Shown here: piece after piece, positions 7,679 to 35,389 of the stretch
Layout: each line of letters starts with the position of its first letter
How positions within the stretch are numbered: position 1 is the stretch's first letter
Origin: Spirirestis rafaelensis WJT71-NPBG6
GTDB taxonomy: Bacteria; Cyanobacteriota; Cyanobacteriia; Cyanobacteriales; Nostocaceae
NCBI GenBank assembly: GCA_019359015.1
Contig: JAHHID010000006.1
Location: 62,001 to 126,000 of the forward strand
DNA: 64,000 nucleotides
Direction of reading: 5' to 3'
Notes under the pieces: generated by a model
The model's input: only the letters and a program-made list of their open reading frames with translations
Databases searched by the model: none
What the model was told of the DNA's origin: nothing
Position numbers and translations under genes: made by a program

Positions 7679-8947
7679 ATGGTTCCATTACGTGATAATA
7701 ACCCAATAACGACTACTCCATATATTAACTATGGAATTATCGCCATTAATATTATCATTTTTCTTTATCAACTAAGCCTAAATCCACAACAATTACAAGG
7801 ATTTTTCTACACTGCGGCGTTAGTACCCTGCCAACTTTCAGGTACTTGTCCTATTGCCTTGCCAAGTCAACTAATTCCTGAGTGGATGACTTTGATAACT
7901 TCCCAATTTTTACATGGTGGTTTTTTGCACTTTGGGGGAAATATGTTATTTTTATCGATTTTTGGTAACAATATTGAAGACCGTTTGGGTCATATCAAAT
8001 ATTTAATTTTTTATCTAACGTGTGGTGTTTTAGCCGGGCTAAGTCAATGGTTTTTTTCCCAAAATTCGGCAATTCCATCCTTGGGTGCAAGTGGTGCGAT
8101 CGCTGGCGTTTTGGGTGCGTACATTCTCCGGTTTCCACGAGCAGAAATTTTTACCTTAATTCCCTTTTTGCTTGCGAACGGAACCGAGGGCAAACTGCAA
8201 ACTTTGATTGATGACATACCCGATGCTGGACAACATCCCAATCGCACCATTGCCTTTGGTCCTGACAAAATGCTCTACCTGAGCGTGGGTAGTACCTGCA
8301 ATGCCTGCGACGAACCGAATAAAGAACACGCCACTTTATTGCAGGTGCAACCTGACGGTAGCAAACGTAACATCTATGCCAAAGGCTTGCGAAACACCAT
8401 CGGCTTTGCATGGCATCCCCAAACCCGCGAACTTTGGGGACTAGATCACGGCTCAGATTGGCGGGGTAATGAGCAACCCCCTGAAGAGTTGAATTTGATT
8501 AAACAGGGTGCAGACTATGGCTGGCCCTTTTGCTGGGGCGATCGCCGTCCTGATGTGTATCTATCTGCCGACCCAGACGGAGCCACTAAGAAAGAATACT
8601 GCGCCAAAACTGAATCGCCAGTGCTTACTTACACAGCCCATAGCGCTCCCTTAGCACTCATGTTTTACACTGCATCTCAGTTTCCTACGGAGTATCGTAA
8701 TGATGCTTTTGTGACTATGCGGGGTTCCTGGAACCGCAACCCTCCTTCAGGCTACAAAGTTGTGCGGATACGTTACGAGAATGGTAAACCCGTGAAGTTT
8801 GAAGACTTCGTAACTGGTTTCTTAACAAAAGACGGTAAAGCACAGTTTGGCAGACCCGTTGGTCTAGCTACCGCACCAGATGGTTCACTTTTTTTTACTG
8901 ACGATACGAATGGCGTGATTTATCGCGTGTCCTACACGGCTAAATAG
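7679..8947 (+). CDS. Chimera: rhomboid protease N-part fused to PQQ sugar (sorbosone) dehydrogenase C-part
   Basis: One 422-aa frame made of two unrelated halves. Residues 1 to about 163 are a rhomboid: membrane segments, the H79-GGFLHFGGN88 motif and GASG with the nucleophile Ser138. It stops after TLIPF, so the last segments with the catalytic His are absent and protease activity is not expected. From about residue 166 to the end it is a soluble glucose/sorbosone dehydrogenase beta-propeller (LIDDIPDAGQHPNRTIAFGPD, YAKGLRNTIGFAW, ADYGWPFCWGD) lacking its export signal and first blades. The junction lies near 8165-8180 and is in frame. I infer a deletion joining two neighbouring genes. Whether a product is made or stable is unknown. 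Confidence 0.85.
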   Translation: MVPLRDNNPITTTPYINYGIIAINIIIFLYQLSLNPQQLQGFFYTAALVPCQLSGTCPIALPSQLIPEWMTLITSQFLHGGFLHFGGNMLFLSIFGNNIEDRLGHIKYLIFYLTCGVLAGLSQWFFSQNSAIPSLGASGAIAGVLGAYILRFPRAEIFTLIPFLLANGTEGKLQTLIDDIPDAGQHPNRTIAFGPDKMLYLSVGSTCNACDEPNKEHATLLQVQPDGSKRNIYAKGLRNTIGFAWHPQTRELWGLDHGSDWRGNEQPPEELNLIKQGADYGWPFCWGDRRPDVYLSADPDGATKKEYCAKTESPVLTYTAHSAPLALMFYTASQFPTEYRNDAFVTMRGSWNRNPPSGYKVVRIRYENGKPVKFEDFVTGFLTKDGKAQFGRPVGLATAPDGSLFFTDDTNGVIYRVSYTAK

Positions 8948-9077: not shown

Positions 9078-10448
9078 TTGAAATATAAAGATAAAAATGA
9101 ACATGCCAAGTTCCAAAAAATAGCAATGCAAAGCGAACAAAGGCGTTTGGAAAACCGAAGAGCATTAAACAAAAAGCCATTATGGTGGTTTGGTGGAGGC
9201 ATATTTGCTCTGTTTATCGCTGCTTTGGGCTTTCTCTATCTCCGAGGATTTTTTCGCCAAGAATCTGAGTACAAAATCAGCAATGTTCCCAGCTTGAAAG
9301 ATAACCGTTTTCCACTATTGGTAGTGAGTTTATCTAATGCTTTGGCTACCAGCGGTCGATTGACTGGTTTTTGGGTGGGAGCAGATGCAATTTATGATGC
9401 TCGATTAAACGCTATTCGCCGCGCTCAACGCACGATTATTTTTGAAACGTATTATATCACACCCGGTCGCCGTGCAAACGACTTCGCCGAGGCATTAATT
9501 GAACGTGCTAAAGCAAGGGTTAAAGTCCAACTTTTGGTAGATGAATATGGTACGAATTCTGTTCCTGATGAGTACTGGCAACGCTTGCGTCAAGCTGGTG
9601 TGGAGGTGCGGTTTTTCCGGGAATTCGATTGGAGGGCACCTTTAGAATACAATTCGCGCACGCACCGCAAATTACTGTTAATTGACACTCAACAAGCTTT
9701 GATTGGAGGTGCGGGGGTTTCTGATAATTGGGATGGAGACCCGGAAATAGGCGATCGCGCTCCTTGGTTAGAATTTGAGGCAAGTTATCAAGGACAAATT
9801 GTCAGCTTATTGAAGGGCAATTTTCTCCAAAATTGGGCTTATGTTGGCGGAACAGTAGATTTGGCAGAGGGTGTATCTTGCCCAGAGCCAGAACCAGAAA
9901 ATAAGTTTTATATTACGAATGATACATCTACATTAAGTGAATCTACGATGAGAATGCTATTTCAAATCAGCTTTCTGGCAGCCAGAGAAAGGGTTTGGAT
10001 TGGCAGTCCTTATTTTGTCCCAGATAGCAACACGCGCAGTGTGCTAATTCAAGCCAAACAAAAGGGCGTTGATGTGCGCGTGCTAACGATGGGGAAGAAA
10101 AATGATAAACCGATAGTTCATTTTGCTTCCCGTGAATTGTATGGTGATTTATTAAAAGCTGGAGTGCAGATTTGTGAATATCAACCCAGTATGATGCACG
10201 CTAAAGTAGCTTTAATTGATGATGGCTGGATAAGTGCGGGAAGCGCAAATTTTGACCCCCGTAGCTATCATCACAACGACGAATTAAATATTTCTACAAG
10301 TAATCCAGAACTAGTGAAAAAAATTGACGGCTTTCTTGTAGACGCTTGGCGTACTAGTCGCTGTCTAACTTATTCGGAATGGCAAAACCGCCCATTTACA
10401 GAAAAAATACAGGGTCAATTAGGGTTAATTTTTAAACCTTTGTTGTAA
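9078..10448 (+). CDS. Phospholipase D-family protein (cardiolipin synthase-like)
   Basis: 456 aa from a TTG at 9078 preceded by AAAGGAC; the ATG at 9126 (MQSEQRRLENR) is an alternative start. One N-terminal membrane segment (about 33-57) is followed by two PLD phosphodiesterase motifs: the first around THRKLLLID and IGGAGVSDNWDGD, the second MHAKVALIDDGWISAGSANFD. This pair defines the bacterial cardiolipin synthase/PLD-like branch, which condenses phosphatidylglycerol at the membrane or cleaves phosphodiesters. Both HxK pairs are intact. It sits between two chimeric loci but is itself complete. Confidence 0.88.
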   Translation: MKYKDKNEHAKFQKIAMQSEQRRLENRRALNKKPLWWFGGGIFALFIAALGFLYLRGFFRQESEYKISNVPSLKDNRFPLLVVSLSNALATSGRLTGFWVGADAIYDARLNAIRRAQRTIIFETYYITPGRRANDFAEALIERAKARVKVQLLVDEYGTNSVPDEYWQRLRQAGVEVRFFREFDWRAPLEYNSRTHRKLLLIDTQQALIGGAGVSDNWDGDPEIGDRAPWLEFEASYQGQIVSLLKGNFLQNWAYVGGTVDLAEGVSCPEPEPENKFYITNDTSTLSESTMRMLFQISFLAARERVWIGSPYFVPDSNTRSVLIQAKQKGVDVRVLTMGKKNDKPIVHFASRELYGDLLKAGVQICEYQPSMMHAKVALIDDGWISAGSANFDPRSYHHNDELNISTSNPELVKKIDGFLVDAWRTSRCLTYSEWQNRPFTEKIQGQLGLIFKPLL

Positions 10449-10475: not shown

Positions 10476-11501
10476 ATGACCGCAGAAGAAAGAAGATTAG
10501 AAGAAGACCGCACCTGTAAAGCATACTGGCGTAGATGGGGACCATATTTAAGCGATCGCCAATGGGGAACTGTGCGCGAAGATTACAGTGAAGATGGTAG
10601 TGCTTGGGATTATTTTCCCCATGAACACGCTCGTGCTCGCGCCTATCGTTGGGGGGAAGATGGTATCGCAGGTATTTCTGATAATCATCAGCGGTTGTGT
10701 TTTGCTGTAGCTTTGTGGAACGGGGAAGACCCAATTTTAAAAGAACGGTTGTTTGGTCTTAGCGGTCCCGAAGGCAATCACGGGGAAGATGTTAAGGAAT
10801 ATTATTTTTATCTAGATAATACCCCGTCTCATGCTTACATGAAATACCTCTATAAATATTCCCAAAAAGCATTTCCATATAAGGAATTAGTAGAGGAAAA
10901 TCAACGACGCGGATACCATGACCCCGAATTTGAATTGGTAGATACTGGCATTTTTGAGGATAATAAATACTTTGATGTATTTGTCGAATATGCCAAGGGT
11001 TCATCGGAAGATATTCTAATGAAAATCACCATTTTTAATAGAAGTGATGAAACCAAAAATATTCATGTTTTACCAACATTATGGTTTCGCAATAGTTGGT
11101 CTTGGTCAGAAAATTGTAAAAAACCAATTCTAACTCAAGATACTCCAGGCGTGATTAATGCTTCTCACCCTACTTTGGGTCAACGTTGGTTTCATTTTCA
11201 AGATTGCAAAACTGTTCTATTTACTGAAAATGAAACAAATAACGAACTACTCTTCGGAGTAAAAAATTCACATCCTTATGTAAAAGATGGAATTAATAAC
11301 TATATTGTTAACGGACAAAAACAAGCAGTTAATAGTAATTCAATAGGTACAAAAGCAGCCGCACATTACGAGTTAACACTTGGCGCAGCAGAAAGCAAAA
11401 CTATCTGCTTAAGATTGACTGATAAAAACAATTTAACAGAAGAATTCGGGACAGAATTTCATGATATTTTTCACCTCAAGCAGCAAAAGACCCGCATTTA
11501 A
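10476..11501 (+). CDS. GH63-like glucosidase, C-terminally truncated
   Basis: 341 aa, ATG after AAGGGAG. The protein reads as the N-terminal region of the long GH63-type (MGH1-like) glycosidases of cyanobacteria: [18 protein letters not shown] near the start, [33 protein letters not shown], and [13 protein letters not shown]. Family members are far longer, and the (alpha/alpha)6 catalytic barrel with its acids follows this region, so it should be inactive here. The homology stops near HDIFHLKQQ and a stop follows four codons later. In the overlapping frame an invertase begins without its own start. See the next feature. Confidence 0.75.
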
Positions 11502-12781
11502 AAGCACTAAATTATGACCAATGTTTTGTCCGCGATTTTGTTCCGGTTGGGTTATTGTTTCTGATGCATGGCAAGACAGAAATTGTTCGTAACTTCTTGG
11601 AAATTACTTTGAAGTTGCAAAGTCACGCTCCAGAAATGGACTGCTTTAAACCGGGACCGGGGTTAATGCCTGCCAGTTTTAAAGTAGTATTTAAAGAGAA
11701 TGAAGAATTTTTAACTGCTGACTTTGGAGAACATGCGATCGCTCGCGTTCCTCCTGTCGATTCCTGTATGTGGTGGTTGCTTCTATTACGTGCTTATAGC
11801 AAAGCAACGGGTGATTTCACTCTTGCCCATCAACCAGAGTTCCAAGAGGGAATTAAGCTGATTTTAGATATGTCTTTGGTGCATCGATTCGCTATGTACC
11901 CAACAATGTTAGTTCCCGACGGTGCGTTTATGATTGACCGTCGAATGGGAGTTGATGGGCATCCCTTAGAAATTCAGGTATTATTTTATGCAGCGCTTCG
12001 GGCAGCGAGCGAGATGCTATTACCAAATGGCTATGGGGAGCGCTATCTAAATCGCGTGTCTGAAAGGTTGGGTGCTTTAAGCTACCACGTGCGCGAATAT
12101 TACTGGCTCGATCTGAAACGTTTAAGCGAAATTTATCGTTATAAAAGTAATGAATTTGGTAAAGAAGTTGCCAATAAATTCAATATTTTTCCTGAATCTA
12201 TCCCTGGGTGGTTAACAGAATGGTTGCCTGAAACCGGGGGATATTTGGCAGGAAATTTGGGACCAGGACGGATAGATTTTCGCTTTTTTAGTTTGGGAAA
12301 TTTGATGGCTATTTTGGTTTCTTTAGCCTGCGAAAAAGAAGCCCAAGCTATCATGAATTTATTTGAGCAACGTTGGCATGATTTAATCGGTTTTATGCCT
12401 GTAAAAATTTGCTTCCCCGCTTTGGAAGGTTTAGAATGGCGAATTGTTACCGGATGCGACCCAAAAAACGCACCTTGGTCTTACCATAATGGGGGCAACT
12501 GGTCTGTTATACTTTGGTTATTTGCAGCCGCAGCACAAAAAACAGGTCGCACCGAATTAGCACAAAAAGCAGTAGAAATTGCCGAAACTCGTTTAATTCG
12601 AGATAATTTTCCTGAGTACTACGACGGCAAAAATGGTCGTTTGATAGGTAAAGAAGCTAGGATTTATCAAACTTGGACAATTGCCGGGTTGTTAGCTGCG
12701 AAAGAGTTGATTGTGAATCCTCAGCATTTAGATTTAATTAGTTTTGAGGAAACTGTGGAGATTCCATATTGTAATTTGTGA
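11465..12781 (+). pseudogene. Neutral/alkaline invertase (GH100), N-terminally truncated
   Basis: The frame opens at 11465, after a stop at 11462. Recognisable GH100 sequence starts within a few codons ([20 protein letters not shown]) with no start codon before it; the first usable ones are TTG 11555 and ATG 11564, inside the conserved core. The rest is complete: [49 protein letters not shown] and [19 protein letters not shown]100 enzymes hydrolyse sucrose in the cytosol. About 50 N-terminal residues are missing, and the frame differs from the GH63 fragment it is joined to. I infer a deletion scar at about 11480. A shortened product from 11564 is possible but would lack part of the catalytic barrel. 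Confidence 0.85.
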
Positions 12782-21837: not shown

Positions 21838-23158
21838 TTGACATCCTCACCGGGCTGAAGCCACGGTGATTCCAAGAATTACTTCTTAGACCTTTCTGCT
21901 TCTTTCCATCACTGGACTTTCGCAACTGCCATCAGACTTATGCCTTTCCGGTCTTACGTTCGCTCCACAGACTGTCACCGCAAGCCCTGCGGCGAGTATG
22001 TTTTTGGCTGCATTCACATCTCGGTCATGGTGCGTTCCACACTTGGGGCAATCCCATTCCCGGATATTAAGAGGCAGCTTTTCAACGATATGCCCACACT
22101 CAGCACATCGCTTAGAACTCGGAAACCATCGGTCAATCTTGACGAAGTTTCGACCATAGCAGTCGCACTTGTACTCAAGTTGTCTGACCAATTCCCCCCA
22201 ACTTGCGTCGCTAATAGAAAGAGCAAGCTTCCGATTCTTAACCATATTCTTCACAGCCAAATCCTCAACGGCAATGGTTTGGTTTTCACGCACCAATCGA
22301 GTCGTCAACTTGTGAAGAAAATCTTTTCTTGCGTCACTAATTTCTTGATGCACCTTAGCGACTTTGAGCCGCGCTTTATGCCGATTGCTAGATCCCTTTT
22401 GCTTGCGACTCAACGCCTTCTGAGCTTTCTTCAGTTTGCGGCGTTTCGTATTAAAGCCTTTCGGGTTGGCAATCTTTTCGCCATCGCTCAAAGCGACCAA
22501 ACTTGTTACACCCAAATCTACCCCAATCCCATTGGAGCGTTTCGGCAATGGCTCAATCTCGACATCCACCAGCAAAGAAACCGACCATCGACCCGCTCTC
22601 GTGAGCTTCACCGTAATGGTCGATGGGCTTGCACCTTGAGGAATGTCTCGACTCCAGCGAATCGGCAACGCTTGGGAGCATTTCGCCAAGTAGACTTGTC
22701 CGTCTCTAAACTTAAATGCAGATTTGGTAAATTCTGCACTACCCCCGTTTCGTTTCTTTTTAAATATTGGGTATTTTGCCCGTCCATCGAAGAAGTTCGA
22801 GAATGCTTTCTGAAGGTGTCGCAATCCTTGCTGCAAGGGGACACAGCTCACCTCATTGAGAAATTGCAAGTCTTCTTGTTTTTTCCATTCGGTCAGCAGT
22901 GCCGAAGTATCGCTGTAACCGACTCGTGTTTTCTGTTCGTACCAAGCCTGTGTTCTCACAGCCAAGGCGCGATTATAGACCAAACGAGTACAGCCCATCG
23001 TGCGTCTGAGCAAGGTTTCTTGCTCAGGCGTGGGATAGAAACGGTACTTAAAGGCTCTCTGTGTCATACCTCACATTATAGCAATTACTCTGTGAGGCAT
23101 GGCGAAGTTAATGTAAAGCCGTCCTAGAAGGACGGGGTTTCTACCCAATTTTCTGATG
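21838..23158 (-). mobile_element. IS200/IS605-group tnpB-only element
   Basis: Contains tnpB and no tnpA. The end after tnpB (21838-21885) has the hairpin CACCG-GGCTGAAGCC-ACGGTG; in related elements this region specifies the guide (omega) RNA. The end before tnpB (23113-23158) has the hairpin CCGTCCT-AGA-AGGACGG then GGGTTTCTACCC. Exact boundaries are estimated. The right edge touches the start codon of nifJ. It depends on a TnpA in trans to move. Confidence 0.75.
21886..23067 (-). CDS. tnpB: TnpB, RNA-guided transposon nuclease
   Basis: 393 aa, near full family length. N-terminal helix-turn-helix (YRFYPTPEQETLLRRTMG, VYNRALA), RuvC Asp in GIGVDLGV (D184), Glu in AVEDLAV (E268), zinc ribbon C321/C324/C340/C343 and last RuvC Asp in HHDRDVNAAKNI (348/350). 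All catalytic residues are present, so it may be active as an RNA-guided DNA nuclease, as shown for TnpB relatives. The start was taken at the ATG opening MTQRAFKYRF. A long open frame on the opposite strand is a shadow. Confidence 0.92.
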   Translation of the reverse strand: MTQRAFKYRFYPTPEQETLLRRTMGCTRLVYNRALAVRTQAWYEQKTRVGYSDTSALLTEWKKQEDLQFLNEVSCVPLQQGLRHLQKAFSNFFDGRAKYPIFKKKRNGGSAEFTKSAFKFRDGQVYLAKCSQALPIRWSRDIPQGASPSTITVKLTRAGRWSVSLLVDVEIEPLPKRSNGIGVDLGVTSLVALSDGEKIANPKGFNTKRRKLKKAQKALSRKQKGSSNRHKARLKVAKVHQEISDARKDFLHKLTTRLVRENQTIAVEDLAVKNMVKNRKLALSISDASWGELVRQLEYKCDCYGRNFVKIDRWFPSSKRCAECGHIVEKLPLNIREWDCPKCGTHHDRDVNAAKNILAAGLAVTVCGANVRPERHKSDGSCESPVMERSRKV

Positions 23159-34507: not shown

Positions 34508-35389
34508 CTATATTGATGGAATCTTTTTCAGTCTAGCTTTAGTAGCAACGGCGACTAAGACAGATAAAAGAAGTAAAGCTGTACTAGTTGAAGGTTCAGG
34601 TACTGAAACTTTGACCTGAGTTCTTCTAACTTGGATGAAAGTTAAATTTGTTGGAGTGGCAAAAGAGCGTTTTAAAGAACCTTCAAACAAAGCCGTCGCA
34701 AATTCCGTATTGCCAACAAAATTAAAGTTAGTATATTGATTAGATAAAGTGATATAATCGCTTTTTGTACTTGTAATAAAATCTTCGTCATTGAAAGAAT
34801 TTACATTTGCCGTCAATGAGAAAAAGTCTAAAGGAGTTTTTTTAATCTTAGACGTAGGATTAGATAATACCTGATCAAAAAAATCATCTAAAAGATTTTG
34901 GTCGGTAATATCAGTTGTGTCAAATAATAAAAAAGAAATATCTGCACTTGCCTTGGCATTCTCTGCTGATGGTTCATCTATTGATGTTTCCAAGCCTAAA
35001 AATGCTGTAAAGTCTACAGAAAAAGATTCACCAGCATCTACAAAAAAGTTACCTAATACTTTACCCTCAGCGTTTGCCAATCCTAAATAATTTTTATTTT
35101 GACCAAAAGCTTCACTCAAAGATGTATTAATTACTTCTGATGGATCATCGAAAAAATCTATGTTTGCATTATTGGTGGCTGATACCTCACCACCCTTAGC
35201 AATACTTGAGATGTTCGCATTATTTCGAGTTGCGGTTACATCAGGGTCGAGACTAAAGTTTATTAAAGAAAATTCCCCCTCAGATGAAGCGAGTGTAGCA
35301 GCTTGAGCCGATGAGGTTACTAAGCTAGAAGTAGCTATTAAAGGAGTAACCAATAGAAAAAAGCGCCGAGTAAATCCCAAAGTACGCAT
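34508..35389 (-). CDS. PEP-CTERM-sorted exported protein
   Basis: 293 aa. Signal peptide (MRTLGFTRRFFLLVTPLIAT...AQA), an acidic Asn/Ser/Thr-rich body, and a C-terminal VPEPSTSTALLLLSVLVAVA helix followed by basic KARLKK: the PEP-CTERM sorting signal recognised by exosortase. Such proteins go to the cell surface or extracellular matrix. The body is not recognised further. The hairpin GCCATTAGT/ACTAATGGC at 34427-34450 lies downstream. Confidence 0.88.
   Translation of the reverse strand: MRTLGFTRRFFLLVTPLIATSSLVTSSAQAATLASSEGEFSLINFSLDPDVTATRNNANISSIAKGGEVSATNNANIDFFDDPSEVINTSLSEAFGQNKNYLGLANAEGKVLGNFFVDAGESFSVDFTAFLGLETSIDEPSAENAKASADISFLLFDTTDITDQNLLDDFFDQVLSNPTSKIKKTPLDFFSLTANVNSFNDEDFITSTKSDYITLSNQYTNFNFVGNTEFATALFEGSLKRSFATPTNLTFIQVRRTQVKVSVPEPSTSTALLLLSVLVAVATKARLKKIPSI

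Follow-up and report, generated by a model that had tools for sequence, protein, structure and literature searches.

In this study, we show that the open frame at 7679-8947 of the window (the whole stretch of 64,000 nucleotides analysed here) joins the 5' part of a rhomboid protease gene to the 3' part of a gene for a PQQ-type sugar dehydrogenase (GSDH). Very probably, this frame is a chimeric remnant, left when an illegitimate deletion fused the rhomboid gene with a GSDH gene lying behind it in the same orientation. A second scar, absent from a preliminary description of this DNA, lies 3.3 kb downstream of the first. The features are as follows.

7679 to 8947, plus strand: chimeric open frame of 422 codons with no internal stop (from the ORF list and its translation)
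7679 to 8164, plus strand: 5' part of the rhomboid gene, residues 1-162, TM1-TM4 with Ser138; TM5, TM6 and the catalytic His are lost
8165 to 8167, plus strand: junction 1, three bases assignable to neither parent
8168 to 8947, plus strand: 3' part of the PQQ-type GSDH gene, blades 3-6, without signal peptide and blades 1-2
9078 to 10448, plus strand: PLD-like gene, not truncated compared to relatives; in the relatives G122 and G135 it lies between the rhomboid and the GH63-like gene
10476 to 11501, plus strand: 5' part of a GH63/MGH1-like gene, approximately the first 339 of 878 residues, without Pfam domain
11481 to 11485, plus strand: junction 2, CAGCA, which in relatives both parent genes carry in register; the join is out of frame
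11480 to 12781, plus strand: GH100 alkaline/neutral invertase gene lacking the 5' end, with profile positions 21-435 of 435 matched; first listed start codon at 11555

The preliminary description had proposed an in-frame chimera of two unrelated families, and the ORF, the Pfam matches and the genes of relatives all agree with it. Rhomboid (PF01694) matches residues 68-160 of the 422-residue ORF (profile 3-94 of 143, E 1.4e-26) and GSDH (PF07995) matches residues 173-415 (profile 99-331 of 332, E 8.5e-23). In relatives the two are separate genes, with open frames of about 230-260 codons for the rhomboid and of about 400-450 for the GSDH. Residues 1-163 are up to 87-88% identical to rhomboids of other genomes, and the last approximately 259 residues (from about 164 to 422) are up to 85-86% identical to GSDHs of other genomes. 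On the DNA level, all three rhomboid genes compared, those of G102, G122 and G135, resemble the window up to 8164 and no further, and similarity to GSDH genes is traceable from about 8168. Thus the join falls at 8165-8167, which narrows the previously given range of about 8165-8180 to its very start. The last rhomboid residue is P162 and the first GSDH residue is L164, part of an LLANG motif that is also present in the intact GSDH L147. No assignable common stretch longer than about 3 nt was found at junction 1, nor any repeat pair of note at its two ends in a comparison covering what remains in the window.

The gene order in the window is MgtE, holin-like (PHol), truncated rhomboid, truncated GSDH, PLD-like, truncated GH63-like and truncated GH100 invertase. 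In G122 and G135, PHol and rhomboid are followed by a gap, PLD and a GH63-like gene of which 870 of 878 residues are matched. The gap between rhomboid and PLD holds in G122 a small frame with ANLQxADL-like repeats, which we take to be pentapeptide repeats, and a search for a GSDH relic in this place in the two genomes gave a best match of E 0.21. In G111 the PLD, GH63-like (870 of 878) and GH100 genes are whole and consecutive. G131, G143 and G153 carry rhomboid, GH63-like DNA and then GSDH on one strand with a rhomboid-GSDH spacing of 4.6-7.5 kb, and the spacing in G172 is alike. The preliminary description had suggested looking in related genomes for two intact neighbouring genes: the genes are whole there, but in G131, G143 and G153 they stand apart by the distance just given, and adjoining whole rhomboid and GSDH genes were found in no genome searched. 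For this reason, and since another small gene occupies the G122/G135 gap, a parent order of rhomboid-GSDH-PLD is one that we infer. A one-step deletion starting from the Calothrix-type order (rhomboid, GH63-like, other genes, GSDH; loci L146, L151 and L152) was considered and rejected, because it would also have deleted the GH63-like gene, which is still downstream in the window. None of the four genus-mates G001-G004 gave a match for PLD, and the gene island is therefore patchy.

At the second scar, the GH63-like remnant shows 73% identity over approximately 339 residues and then passes into the GH100 gene in another reading frame. The CAGCA at 11481-11485 is common to the window, the GH63-like genes and the GH100 gene, in register. 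Both parents are whole and adjoining in G111, and compared to this genome about 1.77 kb are missing at junction 2, as judged from match coordinates. The remnant has no Pfam match, versus two in the whole relative. As a separate observation, a 393-codon frame on the minus strand at 21886-23067, about 9 kb from the second scar, looks by eye like one for a TnpB/IS605-type transposon protein.

The following course of events would account for both scars. A first deletion would have removed approximately the last 69 rhomboid codons, the intervening DNA and approximately the first 143 GSDH codons. A second one, of approximately 1.77 kb by G111, would have cut off the end of the GH63-like gene together with the beginning of the GH100 invertase gene that comes next. 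The frame at the first join would have been kept by chance (one in three) and by youth, while the second join fell out of frame. Chimeric remnants of this kind arise by illegitimate recombination between neighbouring genes. As in other deletion-born remnants, two genes of one orientation are fused here, the upstream one contributing its 5' part and the downstream one its 3' part, and the missing parts are absent, while the genes are whole in relatives. Unlike in those, there are two scars 3.3 kb apart, one of them in frame, and the exact parent order of the first scar is found in no genome.

The host genome is a draft of 7.07 Mb in 143 contigs, rated 99.98% complete, and contains no orthologous copy of the missing pieces, only parts of paralogues. 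For the rhomboid C-terminus these lie on contigs C81 (73% and 60%) and C29 (47%), for the GSDH N-terminus on C72 (39%) and for the missing GH63-like part on C95 (58%). Each of the four broken families has paralogues with long, full-length open frames elsewhere in the genome, on C81 (244 and 227 aa), C72 (450 aa), C95 (891 aa) and C4 (493 aa). The losses may therefore have been tolerated.

These searches also bear on the idea that one or both joins are false and that the genes are whole in the true genome. The number of contigs, and two scars within 3.3 kb, which is unusual, speak for such an artefact. However, a distant misjoin should leave the missing pieces behind, and when we searched the host genome for them, just paralogues were found. 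Moreover, the sequence shared at the joins amounts to about 3 and 5 nt, far below the overlaps used by assemblers. In 19 of 20 other window proteins scanned, a Pfam match was obtained and the principal family was matched close to end to end; the protein encoded at 34508-35389 was the sole one without a Pfam match. Finally, other genomes also have broken genes in this island, with breaks at different places. An assembly error is thus an unlikely source of the joins, and we give it very little probability.

Several other genomes carry damaged genes of this island. In Calothrix sp. PCC 7103 (L046 2983-3885; L152 7737-8591) the GH63-like gene by the rhomboid is cut at another place, with 285 of 878 residues matched and a 300-codon frame. 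In Nostoc sp. FACHB-892 (L068 5561-5860) a large internal deletion has left the MgtE of this island with matches to no more than residues 3-62 and 421-464 of 464. A whole-looking rhomboid stands together with broken GSDH, GH63-like and PLD pieces on one contig in L155 1538-8937 and G041:C87:6857-7428, and the PLD pieces of G041 contain stops, which makes this a further genome with a decaying copy of the island. Such damage is consistent with an island whose genes decay often. In Brasilonema sp. CT11 (L084 7989-8581), the match to a GSDH relative is split into two pieces that overlap (residues 69-172 and 169-257) and resemble a frameshifted gene.

Like a rhomboid protease, the predicted product is up to 88% identical to rhomboids over residues 1-162 and keeps the serine, S138 in GASG, in agreement with the GxSG motif. 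Unlike a rhomboid protease, it is devoid of TM5, TM6 and the catalytic histidine; in intact L149 this is H211 (WAHAG), which falls in the missing part, as do the last two hydrophobic regions, past the join. The six-helix core is incomplete accordingly, with a Pfam match to profile positions 3-94 of 143 compared to 3-139 of 143 in L149. The preliminary description, which had noticed a rhomboid part of residues 1-163 with the active-site Ser and without the catalytic His, was right in this, and likewise in stating that the dehydrogenase part has lost its start and export signal: the N-terminal part of relatives, a signal peptide by eye, precedes the join.

Residues 164-422 are up to 86% identical to the GSDHs of relatives. 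A model of the intact GSDH L147 (mean pLDDT 77, pTM 0.79) shares the fold of known PQQ-type GSDH structures, as seen with 6h7t (Z 35.9, rmsd 2.9, 333 aligned), 1qbi (Z 32.2, rmsd 3.2, 316 aligned) and 3a9g (Z 32.1, rmsd 2.7, 293 aligned). H186 (GQHPNR) lies in the retained half, is aligned with the histidine of 2ism and is invariant in the GSDH alignment; we take it to be the active-site histidine, with a role as in Acinetobacter sGDH. The join corresponds to residue 147 of L147, at the end of the eighth strand and, with blades counted by eye, between blades 2 and 3, so that four of six blades are left. Unlike intact GSDHs, the chimera has thus lost the signal peptide and the first eight strands, that is blades 1 and 2, and has not lost the conserved H186. 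A model of the fusion itself had a mean pLDDT of 58 with nearly all of residues 1-165 below 50, too poor for conclusions.

If made, the product would consist of a four-helix rhomboid stump and a four-bladed propeller fragment. The N-terminus of rhomboids is cytoplasmic, and hence the end of TM4 and the GSDH part behind it would be cytoplasmic too, on the wrong side for an exported enzyme; such GSDH enzymes work in the periplasm. The suggestion that a membrane-anchored enzyme fragment could be made holds as far as the frame permits it, but the GSDH part would face the cytoplasm. Judged from the residues and segments lost, the product is probably inactive both as a protease and as a PQQ dehydrogenase.

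Selection was analysed with a two-ratio codon model written for the purpose, which compares the window branch with the rest of FastTree trees. Per gene, the 8-10 nearest sequences were taken from 68 (halves) and 106 (neighbours) preselected loci, leaving out loci of the own genome, L086-L121, short loci, sequences less than 2% different from a kept one and more distant ones. For the rhomboid half dN/dS was 0.224 versus 0.084 (2dlnL 3.56, p about 0.06 by hand chi-square, 1 df, uncorrected, six tests) and for the GH63-like remnant 0.167 versus 0.074 (2dlnL 5.77, p about 0.016, 1 df, uncorrected, six tests). No relaxation was seen in the GSDH half (0.067 versus 0.086, 2dlnL 0.54) or the GH100 part (0.095 versus 0.085, 2dlnL 0.14); the values for PLD were 0.147 versus 0.122 (2dlnL 0.40). 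The control PHol gave 0.049 versus 0.158 (2dlnL 3.10), in the opposite direction and comparable in size, so that such shifts occur without truncation. These data hint that constraint was relaxed in the two 5' fragments and not in the two 3' fragments, and much of the window branch may predate the deletions. A neutral frame of 422 codons would remain free of new stops with a probability of 0.60 at 1% and of 0.08 at 5% divergence. The open frame thus means either youth or selection.

One of the two origins offered previously was a fresh deletion scar. The scar is supported by the whole genes in relatives, the absence of the missing pieces, the lack of a second fusion and the sister scar; its freshness we infer from a frame that is still intact and a dN/dS shift of modest size.

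The preliminary description had also named an old conserved protein in many species as a finding that would speak against it. At E<=1e-70, a threshold admitting strong matches only (54 of the 217 family genomes gave any match), the rhomboid-GSDH fusion was found in a single one of the 217, the own genome, as it was in a single one of 39 relatives. Among the named genomes, none of 79 loci from the best 80 of more than 593 stretches spans the join, and in none of 408 plasmid records matching the query does any one place cover 80% of the fusion. No other fusion was among the matches listed in an earlier survey of 145 genomes of the family, and our literature search found nothing on a rhomboid joined to a sorbosone dehydrogenase. 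The genomes compared represent one per species, and a fusion between distant paralogues, or one confined to a different strain of this species, may have escaped the comparison. As far as close relatives are concerned, we have dropped the notion of an old, conserved fusion family, whose probability we regard as negligible. A different GSDH architecture was encountered under several plasmid matches: on an Agrobacterium vitis plasmid (L182 2102-3895), residues approximately 134-396 of a 598-codon gene annotated as YbhB/YbcL family match the GSDH half.

The other origin offered was a neofunctional fusion, namely a four-helix pseudo-rhomboid anchor with a four-bladed, GSDH-derived cytoplasmic domain, kept by selection. 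We count against the scar, and in favour of this protein, that 422 codons are free of stops, which neutrality makes less probable the more the sequence has diverged, and that the GSDH half is unrelaxed; the GH100 part, unrelaxed as well, also counts against the scar. The break between blades 2 and 3, by the count made by eye, and the retention of H186 point the same way. The join further falls at structural borders, after TM4 and between these blades, which selection for a folded product could explain too. However, the fusion occurs in no other genome searched, the rhomboid half appears relaxed rather than constrained, the protease histidine and two helices are gone, the GSDH fragment is without signal peptide and two of six blades, and the nearby sister scar is out of frame. 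With one genome, two incomplete catalytic units and no sign of gained constraint, this proposal has found no positive support, and we consider it improbable. A more specific version, in which a membrane protein of this one lineage stands near its birth, with a pseudo-rhomboid anchor and cytoplasmic blades 3-6 that carry the conserved histidine and bind a sugar or quinone, has a slighter chance than either this general proposal or the assembly error discussed above.

Two illegitimate deletions within an accessory gene island of patchy occurrence explain the data best, and the feature is real and its kind ordinary. The chimera looks like a lineage-specific scar that left both enzymes broken and not like a new kind of protein. 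Hence a deletion can yield an open frame that mimics a new domain architecture, and a gene finder could call it as a normal gene of 422 amino acids. The out-of-frame sister scar 3.3 kb away is a warning against inferring function from a kept frame. If the product were stable and useful, this would be a protein fusion observed near its birth.
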